This document shows positions 19,563 to 53,623 of a DNA stretch of 64,000 nucleotides, one piece after another (the first letter of the stretch is position 1; every line of letters starts with the position of its first letter). The notes below the pieces were generated by a model. It did not search any database. It worked only from the letters and a program-made list of their open reading frames with translations, and was not told where the DNA came from. The DNA lies in NCBI GenBank assembly GCA_027491235.1, contig JAIXWO010000011.1:1-64000 (forward strand). The letters are read 5' to 3'. Both the position numbers and the translations under genes were made by a program. The DNA comes from Sphingomonadales bacterium. Lineage in GTDB: Bacteria; Pseudomonadota; Alphaproteobacteria; Sphingomonadales; Sphingomonadaceae.

Positions 19563-20155
19563 TTTGCGGCCTTCTTAAGCGCCATGCGGACCAGCGCGTC
19601 GAACGTTGCACCGTCGCCCAGTTCGGCTTCGGCGGCAGCGACGGCAGCGTTGGCTTCTGCGGGCTTAAAGCCAAGGCCGGTCAGTGCGGACGCCGCATCT
19701 GCCGCATGGCCTGTGGCGGCCACAGGTGCGGCGGCGGTCGGTCCAAGGGCAACGCCGCCGACCTTGTCTTTCAGTTCGCGCACGATGCGTTCGGCGAGCT
19801 TTGGCCCGACGCCATTGGCGCGGGAGACGGCCACCTTGTCCTGCCGCGCAACCGCCTGCGTCAGTTCATCCGGCCCAAGCGTGGAGAGGATCGACAGCGC
19901 AACTTTGCCGCCGACGCCCTGTACGCCCGTGAGTAGGCGAAACCACTCCCGCTCCCCCGGATTTCCAAACCCGAACAGCGTCATGGAGTCTTCGCGCACC
20001 TGCAATTCGGTCAGCAGCATCACTTGCCCCCCAACGGGGCCAATCGCGGTCAAGGTGCGGCTGGAGGCCAGCACGAGATAGCCGACGCCATTCACGTCGA
20101 GCACGGCGTGGTCAGCAGCGCTTTCGACAAGCGTTCCGGTCAGGCGAGCAATCAT
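19559..20155 (-). CDS. ruvA: Holliday junction-binding protein RuvA
   Basis: 198 residues. N-terminal OB fold ([26 protein letters not shown], in part), central helix-hairpin-helix repeats ([32 protein letters not shown]), a flexible linker rich in Ala, and the C-terminal RuvB-contact domain ([20 protein letters not shown]). It acts as a tetramer on four-way junctions. Confidence 0.97.
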
Positions 20156-48898: not shown

Positions 48899-49174
48899 AT
48901 GACTGATACGCCTCCCGATCGCCTCTGCATTGACCCGTCCAGCCCGCATTTCGACGTAGAGGTTCTGCGTCGCGGTGTTGGCATCAAGTTTCGTGGCATC
49001 CAGCGCCACGATGTTGAGGAATATTGCATGTCCGAAGGTTGGGTCCGCGTTCAGGCGGGCAAGACCGTGGACCGCCGCGGCAAGCCTTTGCTGTTGAAGC
49101 TCAACGGCCCGGTTGAAGCCTGGTTTGAAAATGCCGATGCGCAATCTGGCGCGGAGTCCACCCCGGAGGCGTGA
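48899..49174 (+). CDS. DUF3297 protein
   Basis: 91 residues from ATG 48899 (MTDTPPDRLCIDPSSPHFDV). The whole family is this size; FDVEVLRRGVGIKFRGIQRH, VEEYCMSEGWVRVQAGKTVD and RRGKPLLLKLNGPVEAWF are its conserved blocks. Function unknown. Overlaps the PdeM gene by one base, so the two are translated together. The preceding 215-base gap is divergent with katG. Confidence 0.9.
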   Translation: MTDTPPDRLCIDPSSPHFDVEVLRRGVGIKFRGIQRHDVEEYCMSEGWVRVQAGKTVDRRGKPLLLKLNGPVEAWFENADAQSGAESTPEA

Positions 49175-49830
49175 TGCCGCCGCTGCACTTTGCAGGGCAT
49201 GACTTTCAGGTGGCTGGCGGCAGGGCGCTGTTCTGGCCCGCCCGTGCCGCGCTGATCGTAGCCGACCTTCATCTTGAAAAGGCCAGTTGGTTCGCTGCGC
49301 GCGGACAGATGCTCCCCCCGCATGACAGCCTTGCCACCCTCTCTGCTGTGGCGGGTCTTGTGGAGGCGACGGGGGCTCGCGAGGTCTGGTGCCTCGGTGA
49401 CAACTTCCACGACAGCGCTGGCGCGACGCGACTCTTGGGCGACGCCCGTGCCACGCTCGCGCGACTGACGGATATGCTCGACTGGGTGTGGATCACCGGC
49501 AATCATGACGAAAAGCTGCCGGATATTGTCGGCGGCCGCATCGTCGAAGAGGCGGATCTCGGCGGGATCGTGCTGCGCCATCACGCAGATCCGGCTGATC
49601 ACCGACCCGAGCTTTCCGGGCATTTTCATCCCAAATATGGCGGTGCGGCGCGCGGCCGTCGGGTGACGCGCCCCTGTTTTGTGGAAGGGGCGACCAAGCT
49701 CATCCTCCCGTCCTTTGGCGCATTAACCGGTGGGATGGCGGCGACGCATCCGGAGATTGTCCGCTGCATCGGGGCGATTGTGGCGATCCATGTTCCCGCT
49801 GGAGACCGGCTTGTCCGCTTTGCGGCCTAG
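49174..49830 (+). CDS. pdeM: PdeM-type ligase-associated metallophosphoesterase
   Basis: 218 residues from ATG 49174 (TGATG junction); a GTG 3 bases upstream is possible. Calcineurin-like motifs are complete: VADLHLEK (DxH), LGDNFHD, TGNHDE, and GHFHPKYG. This matches the ligase-associated DNA-damage-response endonuclease PdeM, usually in an operon with an ATP-dependent DNA ligase, exonuclease and Lhr-like helicase. Here those partners are absent from the window, and DUF3297 is the coupled neighbour. Confidence 0.92.
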   Translation: MPPLHFAGHDFQVAGGRALFWPARAALIVADLHLEKASWFAARGQMLPPHDSLATLSAVAGLVEATGAREVWCLGDNFHDSAGATRLLGDARATLARLTDMLDWVWITGNHDEKLPDIVGGRIVEEADLGGIVLRHHADPADHRPELSGHFHPKYGGAARGRRVTRPCFVEGATKLILPSFGALTGGMAATHPEIVRCIGAIVAIHVPAGDRLVRFAA

Positions 49831-49836
49831 GGTGCC

Positions 49837-51465
49837 TCAGCCTTCCATCAACGCATAAAGCGCAACCGGTGCGTTGCCCCGCATGGGCAGATGTTCGCCT
49901 GCGAATTCCGTGCGATATCCTGATGTGACACGCCCGAATAAGGCGGTCGCAAAATCACCCGACACGAAGATACCGCCCGGCTGGGTGATGGGATCAATCC
50001 ATTCAGGCAGCGCGCTGGCTGTGCCATACAGGCCTGCAGCGCTTTGCAGCACGATGCCGTAATGCCCGCTGATCCGCAGGCTGACAGGGGCGGCATTCCT
50101 GTCCGCATCGCGCAGGCGGAGTGCGGCAAAAGCGGCATCCTCCGGCGTGTCGAAGGCCAGCGCAAAGCCAGCACTTTGGCGGCTGATGTGGAAGGGCGGG
50201 TGCGGCAGGCAAGATAGTGCCGCCTCAATCGGTGCGATGGTACCTTCGACAAACTGGCCGGTGTCTGCATCGCCGACCTGTTCAATCCCCGCAAAGCCCA
50301 CGAACAACAGCGCGGCCACGCGGCGCCCCGGTTCTTCGGGCCCACCCACCCCTGCAGGTGGCGTGGCGATCTGGCGGGGCCAGCGCAGGACGTGCTGGGC
50401 ACGCCCCGCCGCGCGCCAGGTTTCTCCATCGCGCGCGGTTTCCTTGCCCGCACCAAATGGCTCTTTTGCCTCATCCGAGATCAGCAACTGGACCGCGACG
50501 CTCTCCAGCAGTCCCGCGTTGAGCACGGCAGCACCCATAGAGAGTTCGCTTGCCAGCGTGTTGGCGACCGAATCATAGCGTCCGGAGACGTCGCTGGCCT
50601 CCCGCACACTCACCGCGGCATCAAGACAGGCCTCAAAGCGTTCCGCCCAATTCTCCGCCCAAGGCTCAACCGAAGCTGCGCGAAAGGCGCCGCGTGACAT
50701 GGGCAGCATCACATGCAGCTCGGCGCCGCGCGCGATGAGGCGTTCGGCAATCAGAATGTCCGATCCTGCGGCCAATGCGCCAAAGCCAAAGCCGACATTA
50801 TGCGCAGAAAGAACCTCATCAATCTGGGTTGTGAGCGTCGCATGGGCTGCATCATCTGCGGCGACACCAAGGTGCCCGGCAAAATGGAGGCTGGCAGGCG
50901 GGCGGAATTCATCGAGCCAGCCACAGGGTAGGTCGCTCGCCTCACAGATGAGGTTCAACTGGCGCAGCGTGACGGCATGGTCTTGCCAGCTGGAGCCCAG
51001 CGTGATGGCATGGCGCAGAACGGTGGTCGCGGTCTCAATCTGCCGTTGCAAGAGTAGCGCTTCCGCGCGCGTGGCCTCAATGAAATAGGGCGTGTCGGCA
51101 ATCTCACCGCCGATGTCGATCCGGTCGACGACTTGGCCCGCAAGCGCGGCTGCCTCCCTCTGGTCTCCTGCGAGGAAGCGCATCGTGGCGACATTGATCA
51201 GATGATAGGGCGCTGCCGCCAGCGCGTCCGCGCGCGCATAGGCGCGGGCAGCCTCCGCAAAGAGGTGTTTCCGGTCCGGGGCAACCGATGCACGCAGCGC
51301 GCGATCCTTCAGCAGCCGACCCCGCAAGGTGTGAACGGCAGGATCGGGATCATCTTCCCCGAAACCCGCCGCTTCAAATTGCCGCCAGGCATGGTCCAGC
51401 GCGCCCGATCTTGCCGAAGCAAGGATGGCCGTAAGATTTCTGGACGGTGCCTGGCGGGGTGTCAT
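49837..51465 (-). CDS. TPR (DUF4071-like)-SLOG-like protein with degenerate cyclase domain
   Basis: 542 residues, three parts. Residues ~1-185: TPR-like helices with YHLINVATMRFLAGDQ and EAEALLLQ-type repeats, resembling the TRAFs-binding DUF4071 domain. Residues ~192-295: a Rossmann-type segment (SLHFAGHLG, FGFGALAAGSDILIAERLI, GAELHVMLPMS) resembling SLOG nucleotide-sensing domains. Residues ~380-540: cyclase-homology domain (VAALLFVGFAGIEQ, SAGFALAFDTPEDAAFAALR, GGIFVSGDFATALF). The two metal-binding aspartates expected in LFAD and GDG are Gly390 and Ala432, so it is probably a catalytically dead sensor or regulator. Third gene of the TIR operon, 17 bases after the small protein. Confidence 0.85.
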   Translation of the reverse strand: MTPRQAPSRNLTAILASARSGALDHAWRQFEAAGFGEDDPDPAVHTLRGRLLKDRALRASVAPDRKHLFAEAARAYARADALAAAPYHLINVATMRFLAGDQREAAALAGQVVDRIDIGGEIADTPYFIEATRAEALLLQRQIETATTVLRHAITLGSSWQDHAVTLRQLNLICEASDLPCGWLDEFRPPASLHFAGHLGVAADDAAHATLTTQIDEVLSAHNVGFGFGALAAGSDILIAERLIARGAELHVMLPMSRGAFRAASVEPWAENWAERFEACLDAAVSVREASDVSGRYDSVANTLASELSMGAAVLNAGLLESVAVQLLISDEAKEPFGAGKETARDGETWRAAGRAQHVLRWPRQIATPPAGVGGPEEPGRRVAALLFVGFAGIEQVGDADTGQFVEGTIAPIEAALSCLPHPPFHISRQSAGFALAFDTPEDAAFAALRLRDADRNAAPVSLRISGHYGIVLQSAAGLYGTASALPEWIDPITQPGGIFVSGDFATALFGRVTSGYRTEFAGEHLPMRGNAPVALYALMEG

Positions 51466-51482
51466 TCCGTGTGTGTTACCGA

Positions 51483-52025
51483 TCAGCCGCCGCTGCCGCC
51501 GGGATTGCGGATGTCGGGATCGATCAGAAGGCGCAGTGGCGACTTCTTGCCCGGCTTGTTTTCATGGATGACGTCCACGACGAAGTTGAACCGGTCAACA
51601 TAGTTGGCGGTTGGCGCGATGGCTTCAAACGTCACCATCTTGCAAGGCGCGCTGCTGCCATAAGGCTTGCCGAACGGGTAGCTCGTGCCATCGGGCGCGA
51701 CCCTGCAGAAATTGGCATAGCGGTCCTTGTTCGCACCTTCCTTGAACTGGATCGGGTCTGCGTCTGTCGCGAACTGGAAGTTGTCCTTGTCCGACAAGGT
51801 GAAGACGATGTTGGATGGGACCGCACAGTTCAAGCTAAGCGGCTCGACTTCGACATCGCACTGCGCTTCGGTCGGGGCATATTTGCCGCTAACCACCTGG
51901 CTAACAGCCTCGTCTAACGAGATGTCGATTGGTTTCTGCGGATTCTTATATCCCAGCCGGAACTTATTGCCGGTAATGCTGGCTTCTATTTCACGGATGA
52001 TTGTTTTTCCTATCGCACTTGCCAT
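51483..52025 (-). CDS. Small unknown protein of the TIR operon, C-terminal GG
   Basis: 180 residues, no recognised family. The N-terminus is a short helix (SAIGKTIIREIEASI); the rest appears beta-rich with Cys residues at ~60, 70, 119 and 133 and blocks such as NCAVPSNIVFTLSDKDNFQF, CKMVTFEAIAPTANYVDRF and NFVVDVIHENKPGKKS. No signal peptide or membrane helix. The C-terminus is NPGGSGG, ending Gly-Gly. Starts one base inside the TIR gene stop (TAATG), so it is translated with it. May be an adaptor, substrate or conjugatable partner; not established. Confidence 0.78.
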   Translation of the reverse strand: MASAIGKTIIREIEASITGNKFRLGYKNPQKPIDISLDEAVSQVVSGKYAPTEAQCDVEVEPLSLNCAVPSNIVFTLSDKDNFQFATDADPIQFKEGANKDRYANFCRVAPDGTSYPFGKPYGSSAPCKMVTFEAIAPTANYVDRFNFVVDVIHENKPGKKSPLRLLIDPDIRNPGGSGG

Positions 52026-53623
52026 TACGCCTTCTCCTTCTGCACTTTACTAAGCGACGCGAGTTTGCGTTCGATCTGCGCGAGTCTTTCCCGCCACAGC
52101 TGGTTTGCGGGGTCACGACCGATCATGTCGGACACTTTTGCGCGCGCGTCCTGCAGTCGCTGCACCGCCGCTTCGTGCCGCCCATCTTCCCGCTCCATTT
52201 CCGCAAGCGAAAATTGGCGCGTGACCCAGACGTCACGATAATCGAGATTTTGCGGATCGAGCTCGACAGCACTGTTCACGGCATTTGCCGCCGCCAGATA
52301 AGCACGCCGCGCTTTTAATCGGGCACCTGCCGCCACATGCGCATCACCGAGCCACCCATAGCTGTTGGCAAGGTCGGCAAATGCCGACCCGTCCTTGGGC
52401 GAGCGTTTGACAACCGCGGCCTTGGCCGCAACCGCCGCGGCACAAGCGGTGTCCGCCAGCTTCAAGTCCTTGGCATCTGGTGTCAGGGAGAGTGCACACA
52501 GATTCCCCTGCGCATAGCCCTGTTCGCGAATGTACCGCACGGTATCGGGGCGGAGCGCCGTCATCCGGTCGGCCAGCTTCACATAGCCTTGAAAATGTGT
52601 CCGCGCACTGCGGAAATCCTTTTTCCGATACGCCATATAGCCCAGCCAATATTCGCTCTGCGCATGGGCGAAGAGGCTTTCAGCGTCGCCCGGGCGTCGC
52701 GCGGCAATGGCAGATGTGGTCCGATGGGCTTCGGAGAATTTGACGAGGGCCGCAGCCTTCTCGCCGCGCGCCTCATCATCTTCGCCCATGGCATGAAGGA
52801 TACGGGCCCGCCTCTCTAGGCTCTGGTCGGGCAGGGCCGCCAAAGACTGGTCGCTATAATAATCCATTGCGCGTGCGTTGACCGCGTTCATGACATCTAG
52901 CCGTCCAACCCCCTTAAGGCGCCCTCGTAAGTCGGTCAGCATGAACTCGATCAGACCTTCCGCCTCAGCCTGTTGTCGTTCCGCCTCCGCACGTGCGCGG
53001 ACCGCAGCCACCAGCAGGCCAGACAGCACTATAATAGCTATGACGGCGGAGGCTGTGACGGCCATCACGCGGCGCAGTCGGCGCTGTGCATCCCGCTGCA
53101 CCAGATCGTCCACACCAATGCCGGTTAACCCGGCGATCAGCTTGATCCGGCCCAAACGTTCCTGTTCACCGCGCAAGTCACTGGCAATGGGCTCTCGCGC
53201 GTTGCCATCAGGGCCGGGTGCAAAAAGTGCGGGCGGGCAGGCGGTGTTGAGATCCCCGCGCACCAAAGCGGGCAGAATCGGCCGGTCCGGATGCATTTCC
53301 CGGAACAATTCAATCTCGCGATTGACCCAGCGGGAGGCTTTCGCGTCAGGGGAGCACAATACAATGAGCGCGGCGGAATCGGCCAGTGCCGCCTTGATTT
53401 CGGTGCTCAGGTCATCTGCGGCCGGAAGCTCATCAATATCCCGGAAAATTGGCGTTAATCGCGCGGGGACGGGGCCGCGTGATGTGGGCGTTCCGACGAG
53501 CCTAGGGGGCAGGCGATAGCTTTCCAGCCGCCGGTGCAGACGGACGGCAACGGTCGTGTCGCAATGGCTGTAGCTGATGAACGCCTTATACCGTCCGGTC
53601 GTTCCGGCGTCTTCCACCGTCAT
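52025..53623 (-). CDS. Membrane-anchored TIR-TPR protein
   Basis: 532 residues. TIR domain ~11-140: YKAFISYSHCD (box 1), IFRDIDELPA, ALIVLCSPDA and WVNREIELF, with Glu103 at the position of the NAD-cleaving Glu of active TIR enzymes. One transmembrane helix at ~187-208 (VMAVTASAVIAIIVLSGLLV) preceded by arginines, placing the TIR in the cytoplasm. The following ~300 residues are TPR-like (ILHAMGEDDEARGEKAAALV, ANSYGWLGDAHVAAGARLKA), and topology would put them in the periplasm. First gene of the three-gene operon. Whether it hydrolyses NAD is inference from the retained Glu. Confidence 0.9.
   Translation of the reverse strand: MTVEDAGTTGRYKAFISYSHCDTTVAVRLHRRLESYRLPPRLVGTPTSRGPVPARLTPIFRDIDELPAADDLSTEIKAALADSAALIVLCSPDAKASRWVNREIELFREMHPDRPILPALVRGDLNTACPPALFAPGPDGNAREPIASDLRGEQERLGRIKLIAGLTGIGVDDLVQRDAQRRLRRVMAVTASAVIAIIVLSGLLVAAVRARAEAERQQAEAEGLIEFMLTDLRGRLKGVGRLDVMNAVNARAMDYYSDQSLAALPDQSLERRARILHAMGEDDEARGEKAAALVKFSEAHRTTSAIAARRPGDAESLFAHAQSEYWLGYMAYRKKDFRSARTHFQGYVKLADRMTALRPDTVRYIREQGYAQGNLCALSLTPDAKDLKLADTACAAAVAAKAAVVKRSPKDGSAFADLANSYGWLGDAHVAAGARLKARRAYLAAANAVNSAVELDPQNLDYRDVWVTRQFSLAEMEREDGRHEAAVQRLQDARAKVSDMIGRDPANQLWRERLAQIERKLASLSKVQKEKA

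Follow-up and report, generated by a model that had tools for sequence, protein, structure and literature searches.

The window considered here, by which the whole analysed stretch of 64,000 nucleotides is meant, corresponds to C9:1-64000 of a 3.39-Mb Sphingomonadales genome in 29 contigs. It carries three adjacent genes on its minus strand, named A (TIR domain, membrane helix, and tetratricopeptide repeats, TPR), B (a small middle protein), and C (TPR-S domain, SLOG-like segment, and cyclase remnant), in the order A > B > C. The initial annotation described three minus-strand genes joined by a 1-base overlap and a 17-base gap, and this is exactly what is found, with open reading frames (ORFs) at 53623-52025, 52025-51483, and 51465-49837, and a TAATG coupling between A and B. 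The layout of constant and variable parts and the Crp-like partner described below are visible only by comparing relatives. At the level of sequence, this comparison shows a constant TIR-membrane part at one end and a constant gene C at the other; what lies between them, the second half of A together with the middle gene, is swapped as a single block. The features concerned are the following.

Gene A: 52025..53623, minus strand, 532 aa; TIR, membrane helix, conserved linker, and TPR half (ORF; Pfam TIR_2 and ThsB_TIR over cut-off)
TIR domain of A: 53228..53587, minus strand; residues about 13-132 (Pfam match 15-132), Glu103 included
Membrane helix of A: 53000..53068, minus strand; residues about 186-208 (hydropathy 2.5)
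Exchangeable variable segment, as predicted from pair identity profiles, DNA mosaics, and tree tests: 51466..52771, minus strand; A residues about 285-532 and the whole of gene B, ending at the start of C
Gene B: 51483..52025, minus strand, 180 aa; IDP type, C-terminal motif IDPDIRNPGG (PF20301 pNTSase1)
Gene C: 49837..51465, minus strand, 542 aa; TPR-S, SLOG-like segment, and degenerate class III cyclase
TPR-S match of C: 51181..51429, minus strand; residues 13-95 (PF20308)
SLOG-like segment of C: 50458..50904, minus strand; residues 188-336, with a GALAAGSD motif (conserved among relatives, without a supporting database match)
Cyclase remnant of C: 49840..50340, minus strand; residues 376-542, the metal Asp positions being Gly390 and Ala432

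The borders of the variable segment in the window were transferred from relatives, the window's own four close relatives showing no swap.

Constant ends and an exchanged middle block

Middle proteins were compared at 49 loci (the window, three named relatives, 18 PF20301 loci, and 27 others), after L041 and L006 had been dropped; L028 and L125, in which A is cut, were further removed to give a 47-locus set, and L133 was left out of the tree. Close pairs of loci were defined by a TIR at least 65% and a TPR-S at least 55% identical (n=66, the pairs sharing loci). The TPR half of A (A-TPR) falls under 45% identity in 44 of these 66 pairs, and the middle protein is under 45% too in 43 of those 44. 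Among the other pairs, only the A-TPR half is low in 1, only the middle protein in 10, and neither in 12. Profiled over the 44 pairs, identity along A drops between residues about 245 and 285.

The same borders can be followed in the DNA. Between L042 and L044, which come from two species of one genus, identity outside the block is 79-100% per 100 columns (mostly over 90) in the 2 kb before A, the TIR part, and from C onward, and 31-73% inside it, between A residue about 265 and the beginning of C. Seven further DNA pairs were chosen by the analyst, five of them for their low A-TPR identity. For L101/L106, L101/L110, L096/L099, L034/L112, and L118/L112, identity falls at A nucleotide about 700-1070 and rises at the start of C, while for L109/L111 only the middle gene is lower. 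L106/L116 forms a reverse mosaic, with 81-92% in the second half of A versus 62-81% in the TIR and 39-72% in C, as if the second half of A had been recently shared.

The middle slot of the 49 loci is occupied by proteins of two types, assigned by eye from their C-terminal motif before the trees were built: 38 are of the IDP type (C-terminal IDP..N, window included), 10 of the HPP type (C-terminal HxGxHPP or HFTS), and 1 (L096) is unassigned and left out of the type counts. Over 47 loci, 46 of them typed, the middle type requires 6 changes on the TIR tree, 5 on the TPR-S tree, 6 on the SLOG tree, and 1 on the A-TPR tree; it needs 6 on a tree of the first 330 residues of C (49 loci). A second build with 46 loci gave 5 changes for TIR and transmembrane part (TIR+TM), 5 for TPR-S+SLOG, and 1 for A-TPR. 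In this second build, a single branch of the A-TPR tree separates the HPP loci from all others (support 98), and AU tests reject such a grouping for TIR+TM (p-AU 4e-73) and for TPR-S+SLOG (p-AU 1e-4). Partial Mantel tests point the same way, the middle protein correlating with A-TPR (r 0.50, p 0.001) and showing values of about 0 with TPR-S and with TIR. Against the constant parts, GC content at third codon positions (GC3) is reduced in 39 of the 47 middle genes and in 35 of the 47 A-TPR halves; as the loci are related, the p values here are indicative at most. For the window itself, the nearest kin beyond its three close relatives is L095 for the constant parts and L033 for A-TPR, and this difference hints at an older exchange in its lineage.

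Gene B and the two middle-slot families

The middle protein, left unrecognised in the initial annotation, matches Pfam PF20301 (pNTSase1, predicted nucleotide synthetase) with 29.4 bits versus a cut-off of 25, although the match covers only profile positions 62-161 of 161. Its Gly-Gly end, also pointed out there, is indeed present in the window protein (IDPDIRNPGG) but is not a conserved terminus among relatives. A ubiquitin-like tail was, therefore, rejected: the ends vary, and it is the IDP..N motif that is conserved.

In a left-out profile test (E under 1e-3), 37 of 38 IDP and 10 of 10 HPP proteins found their own family, with 0 cross-family matches; the nearest misses were L118 against the HPP profile (0.0018) and L103, the sole missed IDP protein (0.0018). 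Kinship between the two families was also rejected by hhalign, with a probability of about 1%. Asp169 and Pro170 alone are invariant in the 38 IDP-type proteins, which argues against a conserved catalytic centre, and hence against the 'nucleotide synthetase' label, without disproving it. Each of the 49 compared cassettes has a middle ORF, 132-303 aa long. Three loci (L095, L110, and L118) have two middle ORFs between A and C, of which the longer was used. Those of L110 (L110:4734-6242) are two different tandem genes, one found with the B profile and the other sharing the same IDP ending; they possibly represent an added or left-over module.

The B profile had no match in the PDB (E up to 10), and a PHROGs search returned none for B, C, or two other middle proteins. 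Window B had no match among plasmids and phages; the B of L029 and window C both hit a single Novosphingobium plasmid record, which has no annotated gene at that place. No toxin family was found in Pfam scans of 30 of the 49 middle proteins. By hydropathy only, with no signal-peptide program, none of the 49 has a strong N-terminal stretch (top 12-mer in the first 35 residues 1.71). In named records (n=4), the closest relatives of B are two uncultured Sphingomonadales bins, 96% identical, and the nearest one carrying a species name is from Chakrabartia godavariana (86% identity).

Gene A

The TIR domain of A is confirmed by Pfam TIR_2 (E 3e-12, over cut-off). The retained Glu noted in the motif WVNREIELF is residue 103. 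Of the 51 A proteins aligned (profile E up to 1e-20), 49 have it, and the remaining two (L028 and L107) show a gap there, as their A is cut. The single membrane helix that had been read from the sequence also holds: one strong helix lies at about 186-208 (hydropathy 2.5), the runner-up stretch of window A reaching 1.42. In 21 of 47 A proteins, a further hydrophobic stretch comes up to 1.6; in 20 of these it precedes the helix and lies in or near the TIR core. The proposed TPRs are supported by the family profile, which finds a designed TPR protein among the PDB entries (E 5e-5), the Pfam matches being weak and all under cut-off. In 40 of 47 A proteins, the N-side of the helix carries more positive charge (charge rule), a pattern that suggests a TIR in the cytoplasm and a TPR half outside.

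Gene A and its relatives form one BLAST cluster, present in 49 of 81 loci; against PHROGs, A gave a single match (E 0.033). Part of the family A TIR region is also matched by a solved 824-aa 'Tetratricopeptide repeat protein' (PDB 9m0n and 9umd, E 0.003). Two more TIR domains occur in the same genome on a 26-kb contig, at G000:C28:7368-7727 and 19666-19995 (L002 and L001), in open frames of 1361 and 341 aa, with TIR_2 matches stronger than that of window A.

Gene C and its Crp-like neighbour

TPR-S (PF20308) is found in window C with 33 bits versus a cut-off of 27.6, and all 22 C-set members match it at E up to 1. DUF4071-like TPRs had been read in C, in agreement with MAP3K_TRAF_bd, which we take to be DUF4071, matching 19 of 22 C-set members at E up to 1 (the window alone is under cut-off, E 0.13). 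A profile of 15 wider C homologues, moreover, matches a solved region of ASK1 (5ulm, E 0.003; 8qgy, E 0.012). The SLOG reading fared less well, as no SLOG family turned up when C homologues were scanned with Pfam (E up to 1) and a PDB search with the segment returned only an unrelated lyase (E 0.24). What is left of it is a resemblance in one motif (GALAAGSD). TPR-S and the SLOG-like segment are nevertheless the conserved parts of C.

The cyclase homology is supported by a profile match to the Ma1120 cyclase (E 1e-4), and, as noted earlier, both metal Asp are replaced (Gly390 and Ala432), as judged against relatives that retain them. Window C, thus, lacks the two metal-binding Asp that mark an active class III cyclase; three recognisable class III cyclases are found elsewhere in the genome. 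Many C proteins of the dead clade show more than the loss of metal binding, their cyclase part being eroded or shortened.

In 37 of 81 loci, the gene next to C is Crp/Fnr-like and convergent to it; 34 of these loci are among the 48 related cassettes, and Pfam found a cyclic nucleotide (cNMP)-binding domain in three of three tested genes of this type. Scoring was made at the 40 loci with a Crp-like gene within three places of C, L083 and L093 being left out of the Crp set. The rule for 'intact', set after viewing the table, asked for both Asp and an Arg or Lys in the cyclase, and for Glu and Arg in the Crp pocket. With this rule, 29 loci are dead for both, 11 live for both, and 0 mixed, with L040 and L096 (D at both Asp columns but no Arg) counted as dead cyclases, and L100, L114, and L124 (Crp Glu kept, Arg gone) as dead pockets. 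The dead-cyclase set forms one side of one branch on the tree of the first 330 residues of C (43 of 81 C proteins, support 100), which makes this one joint loss of cyclase and Crp pocket rather than many. The window has no Crp gene beside C; the nearest of this type lies on the same contig, about 50 kb off, with Glu kept and Arg lost.

Other partners occur around C homologues outside Sphingomonadales. At L085:4351-7909, a C homologue that keeps an intact cyclase overlaps at its start with a 573-aa protein whose last domains are a cNMP-binding domain and a Crp helix-turn-helix; the two look like a messenger-receptor pair. At L076:1-6161, a C homologue lies next to a 1450-aa nSTAND1 NTPase with WD40 repeats, and L077 has another TIR protein near C, with two ORFs between. 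One of the 15 wider C homologues contains a RyR domain (E 1.7e-29).

Distribution and genomic setting

PF20301 matches occur in 20 of 396 Sphingomonadales genomes, the window's own included (19 over cut-off). Among 385 genomes sampled across the class, 2 have a match, both from the window's own family. All 20 positive Sphingomonadales genomes have A > middle > C, the 19 others in the same order and strand (in L028, A is cut by the contig end). The C profile matches 86 of the 396 genomes, these 20 among them. From the 66 C-positive, PF20301-negative genomes, 39 were read (27 were left out), giving 40 loci with a second locus of G230: 27 show A > middle > C, 8 are without A, and 5 have another arrangement, L131 being one of the five. 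This locus (genome G331, from the window's genus) has a 676-aa A-like protein directly beside C and no middle gene, and L107 (A cut), L126, and L130 likewise have none between A and C. Outside Sphingomonadales, 20 of 24 C-positive genomes were read, and A or B was found near C in 0 of these 20 loci (profiles, E up to 1e-3). Co-occurrence of the three genes thus stands within the order but not beyond it. These counts support a conserved three-gene unit within Sphingomonadales, whose families are not bound to each other everywhere.

Downstream of C, the window has one further gene to be considered.

Convergent neighbour downstream of C: 49171..49830, plus strand; calcineurin-like phosphoesterase (Pfam 21.0 bits, cut-off 21.5)

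This presumably PdeM-like phosphoesterase is outside the A-B-C unit and occupies the place of the Crp-like gene of 34 of the 48 related cassettes. PdeM as a conserved convergent neighbour was rejected, as it adjoins C in only 4 of 82 loci (L041 duplicating L007), the frequent gene being Crp-like. The window flanks comprise the phosphoesterase, a DUF3297 protein, and an FMN-dependent dehydrogenase (Pfam), and the same genes surround the cassette in L005, L007, and L008.

Comparison with known systems

The PF20308 TPR-S and PF20301 pNTSase1 families reportedly go back to Burroughs and Aravind in 2020, who are said to have predicted that TPR-S reads NAD-derived signals. Both conflict-system families are over cut-off in this operon, with a TIR gene adjoining. 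The likeness to Thoeris lies in gene A, with ThsB_TIR over the Pfam cut-off and weak PADLOC ThsB matches (E 0.012 and 0.021). However, no SIR2, ThsA-type, or other Thoeris effector match was found among A, B, and C, and the NCBIfam ThcB4 match reaches 21.7 bits versus a cut-off of 220. As in circuits of a class III cyclase with a Crp receptor, all 11 loci outside the dead clade that have both keep the metal Asp and the Crp Glu and Arg, whereas the window's clade is degenerate in both and the window itself has no Crp gene beside C. The TRAF-binding/TPR region of animal ASK1 (MAP3K5) resembles the wider C homologues by profile (5ulm and 8qgy), but the C system has no kinase and is a bacterial operon.

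The block exchange, the second middle family, and the joint cyclase/Crp loss were not met in the portions of the literature covered by the search (PMC7159879, PMC8195603, PMC13092281, and PMC7824862 among it), a scope outside which the original 2020 family description falls and which is no proof of their being unpublished.

Interpretation

The evidence from these comparisons puts the variable, recognition-like part of the system in the second half of A and the middle protein, and not in the dead cyclase or SLOG-like part of C. What we infer is a TIR signalling unit, bound to the membrane, whose recognition module can be exchanged, a reading to which we give an even chance. More tentatively, the system may be a bacterial innate receptor, in which a constant TIR half and a constant relay gene C would be combined with variable modules (the TPR half and its matched partner) traded between species by recombination, the repertoire being spread over species. 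In the membrane-bound unit of the first reading, the TPR half of A and the middle protein would form the variable recognition element. Once it met a ligand, the TIR domains would cluster and cleave NAD (Glu103 is kept), and C would read or restrain the TIR product via TPR-S, perhaps via its SLOG-like part. The Crp-like regulator often found beside C could carry the output, without a normal cyclic-nucleotide pocket in the dead clade. Phage defence or self/non-self recognition would be a guess at the biological role.

Several observations weigh against the reading of an exchangeable recognition module. On the constant trees, too, the HPP loci cluster, with 1 to 4 of 500 label shuffles being as low, so that part of the pattern is descent, and the A-TPR tree has long branches that meet, making its deep order unsure. 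In 10 of the 66 close pairs, low identity affects the middle protein but spares A-TPR. Among the window, L005, L007, and L008, B is no faster than its flanks (B 69-96%, A 68-90%, C 71-95%), A-TPR identity being below that of the TIR in the same four, and the window's B is without low GC3. As A-TPR and the middle gene are adjacent on the DNA, their joint exchange could stem from linkage alone, without contact between the proteins. Such contact is, moreover, left unexplained by a TPR half predicted outward and middle proteins without a strong N-terminal stretch. The cyclase/Crp coupling is a single event, PADLOC matches A only, and weakly, and the scanned flanking genes look like housekeeping genes.

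Several of the same data can be read as self/non-self or toxin-immunity, in which the middle protein, exported or toxic, would fit the TPR half of the A encoded beside it, with cognate pairs held together by selection. Joint exchange of the two adjacent parts, two middle families without detectable kinship, lower GC3, and the outward prediction for the TPR half all fit this scheme. It is, nevertheless, doubtful, since the Pfam scans found no toxin family, hydropathy gives no clear export signal, and the association with C and a Crp-like regulator suggests signalling over simple immunity.

The sensor-effector circuit of the initial annotation, in which the dead cyclase and SLOG part of C would sense a nucleotide and gate the TIR, is retained here as a conserved unit within the order, but not as a nucleotide sensor. 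C accompanies A in all 19 other PF20301 genomes, its conserved parts include both TPR-S and the SLOG-like segment, and Pfam names TPR-S a 'sensor'. Nevertheless, the cyclase is eroded or shortened in many dead-clade members, SLOG has no profile support, and the variable module is left unexplained. The Crp pocket was also lost in the 29 scored dead-clade loci, on the same branch as the cyclase, which makes nucleotide sensing by the dead cyclase unlikely.

An ordinary stress-signalling operon without any recognition role, whose weakly constrained middle recombines by chance, would suit the housekeeping-like flanks and the loci that lack a middle gene (L131, of the same genus, and L107, L126, and L130). 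This appears improbable, as a middle ORF persists in all 49 compared cassettes and drift would not make the middle type track A-TPR rather than TIR or C. Finally, that the Pfam label is right and B is a small nucleotide synthetase, its product being read by the TPR-S of C, is very unlikely: PF20301 is over cut-off in the window and matched at E up to 1 by 22 of 22 of the set found with it, but an enzyme would be expected to keep more than Asp169 and Pro170, a protein of another family fills the slot at 10 of 49 loci, and the label is itself a prediction.

The name 'nucleotide synthetase' that Pfam gives the middle protein deserves a second look. In the joint loss of cyclase and receptor pocket, a messenger circuit seems quite clearly to have outlived its messenger. 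Bacterial TIR systems are held to be the ancestors of animal and plant immune signalling and, to our knowledge, many of them lack a described ligand. In this one, the comparison by itself indicates the likely recognition part, as a block exchanged between constant signalling parts, which makes ligand hunting and module-swap experiments direct.

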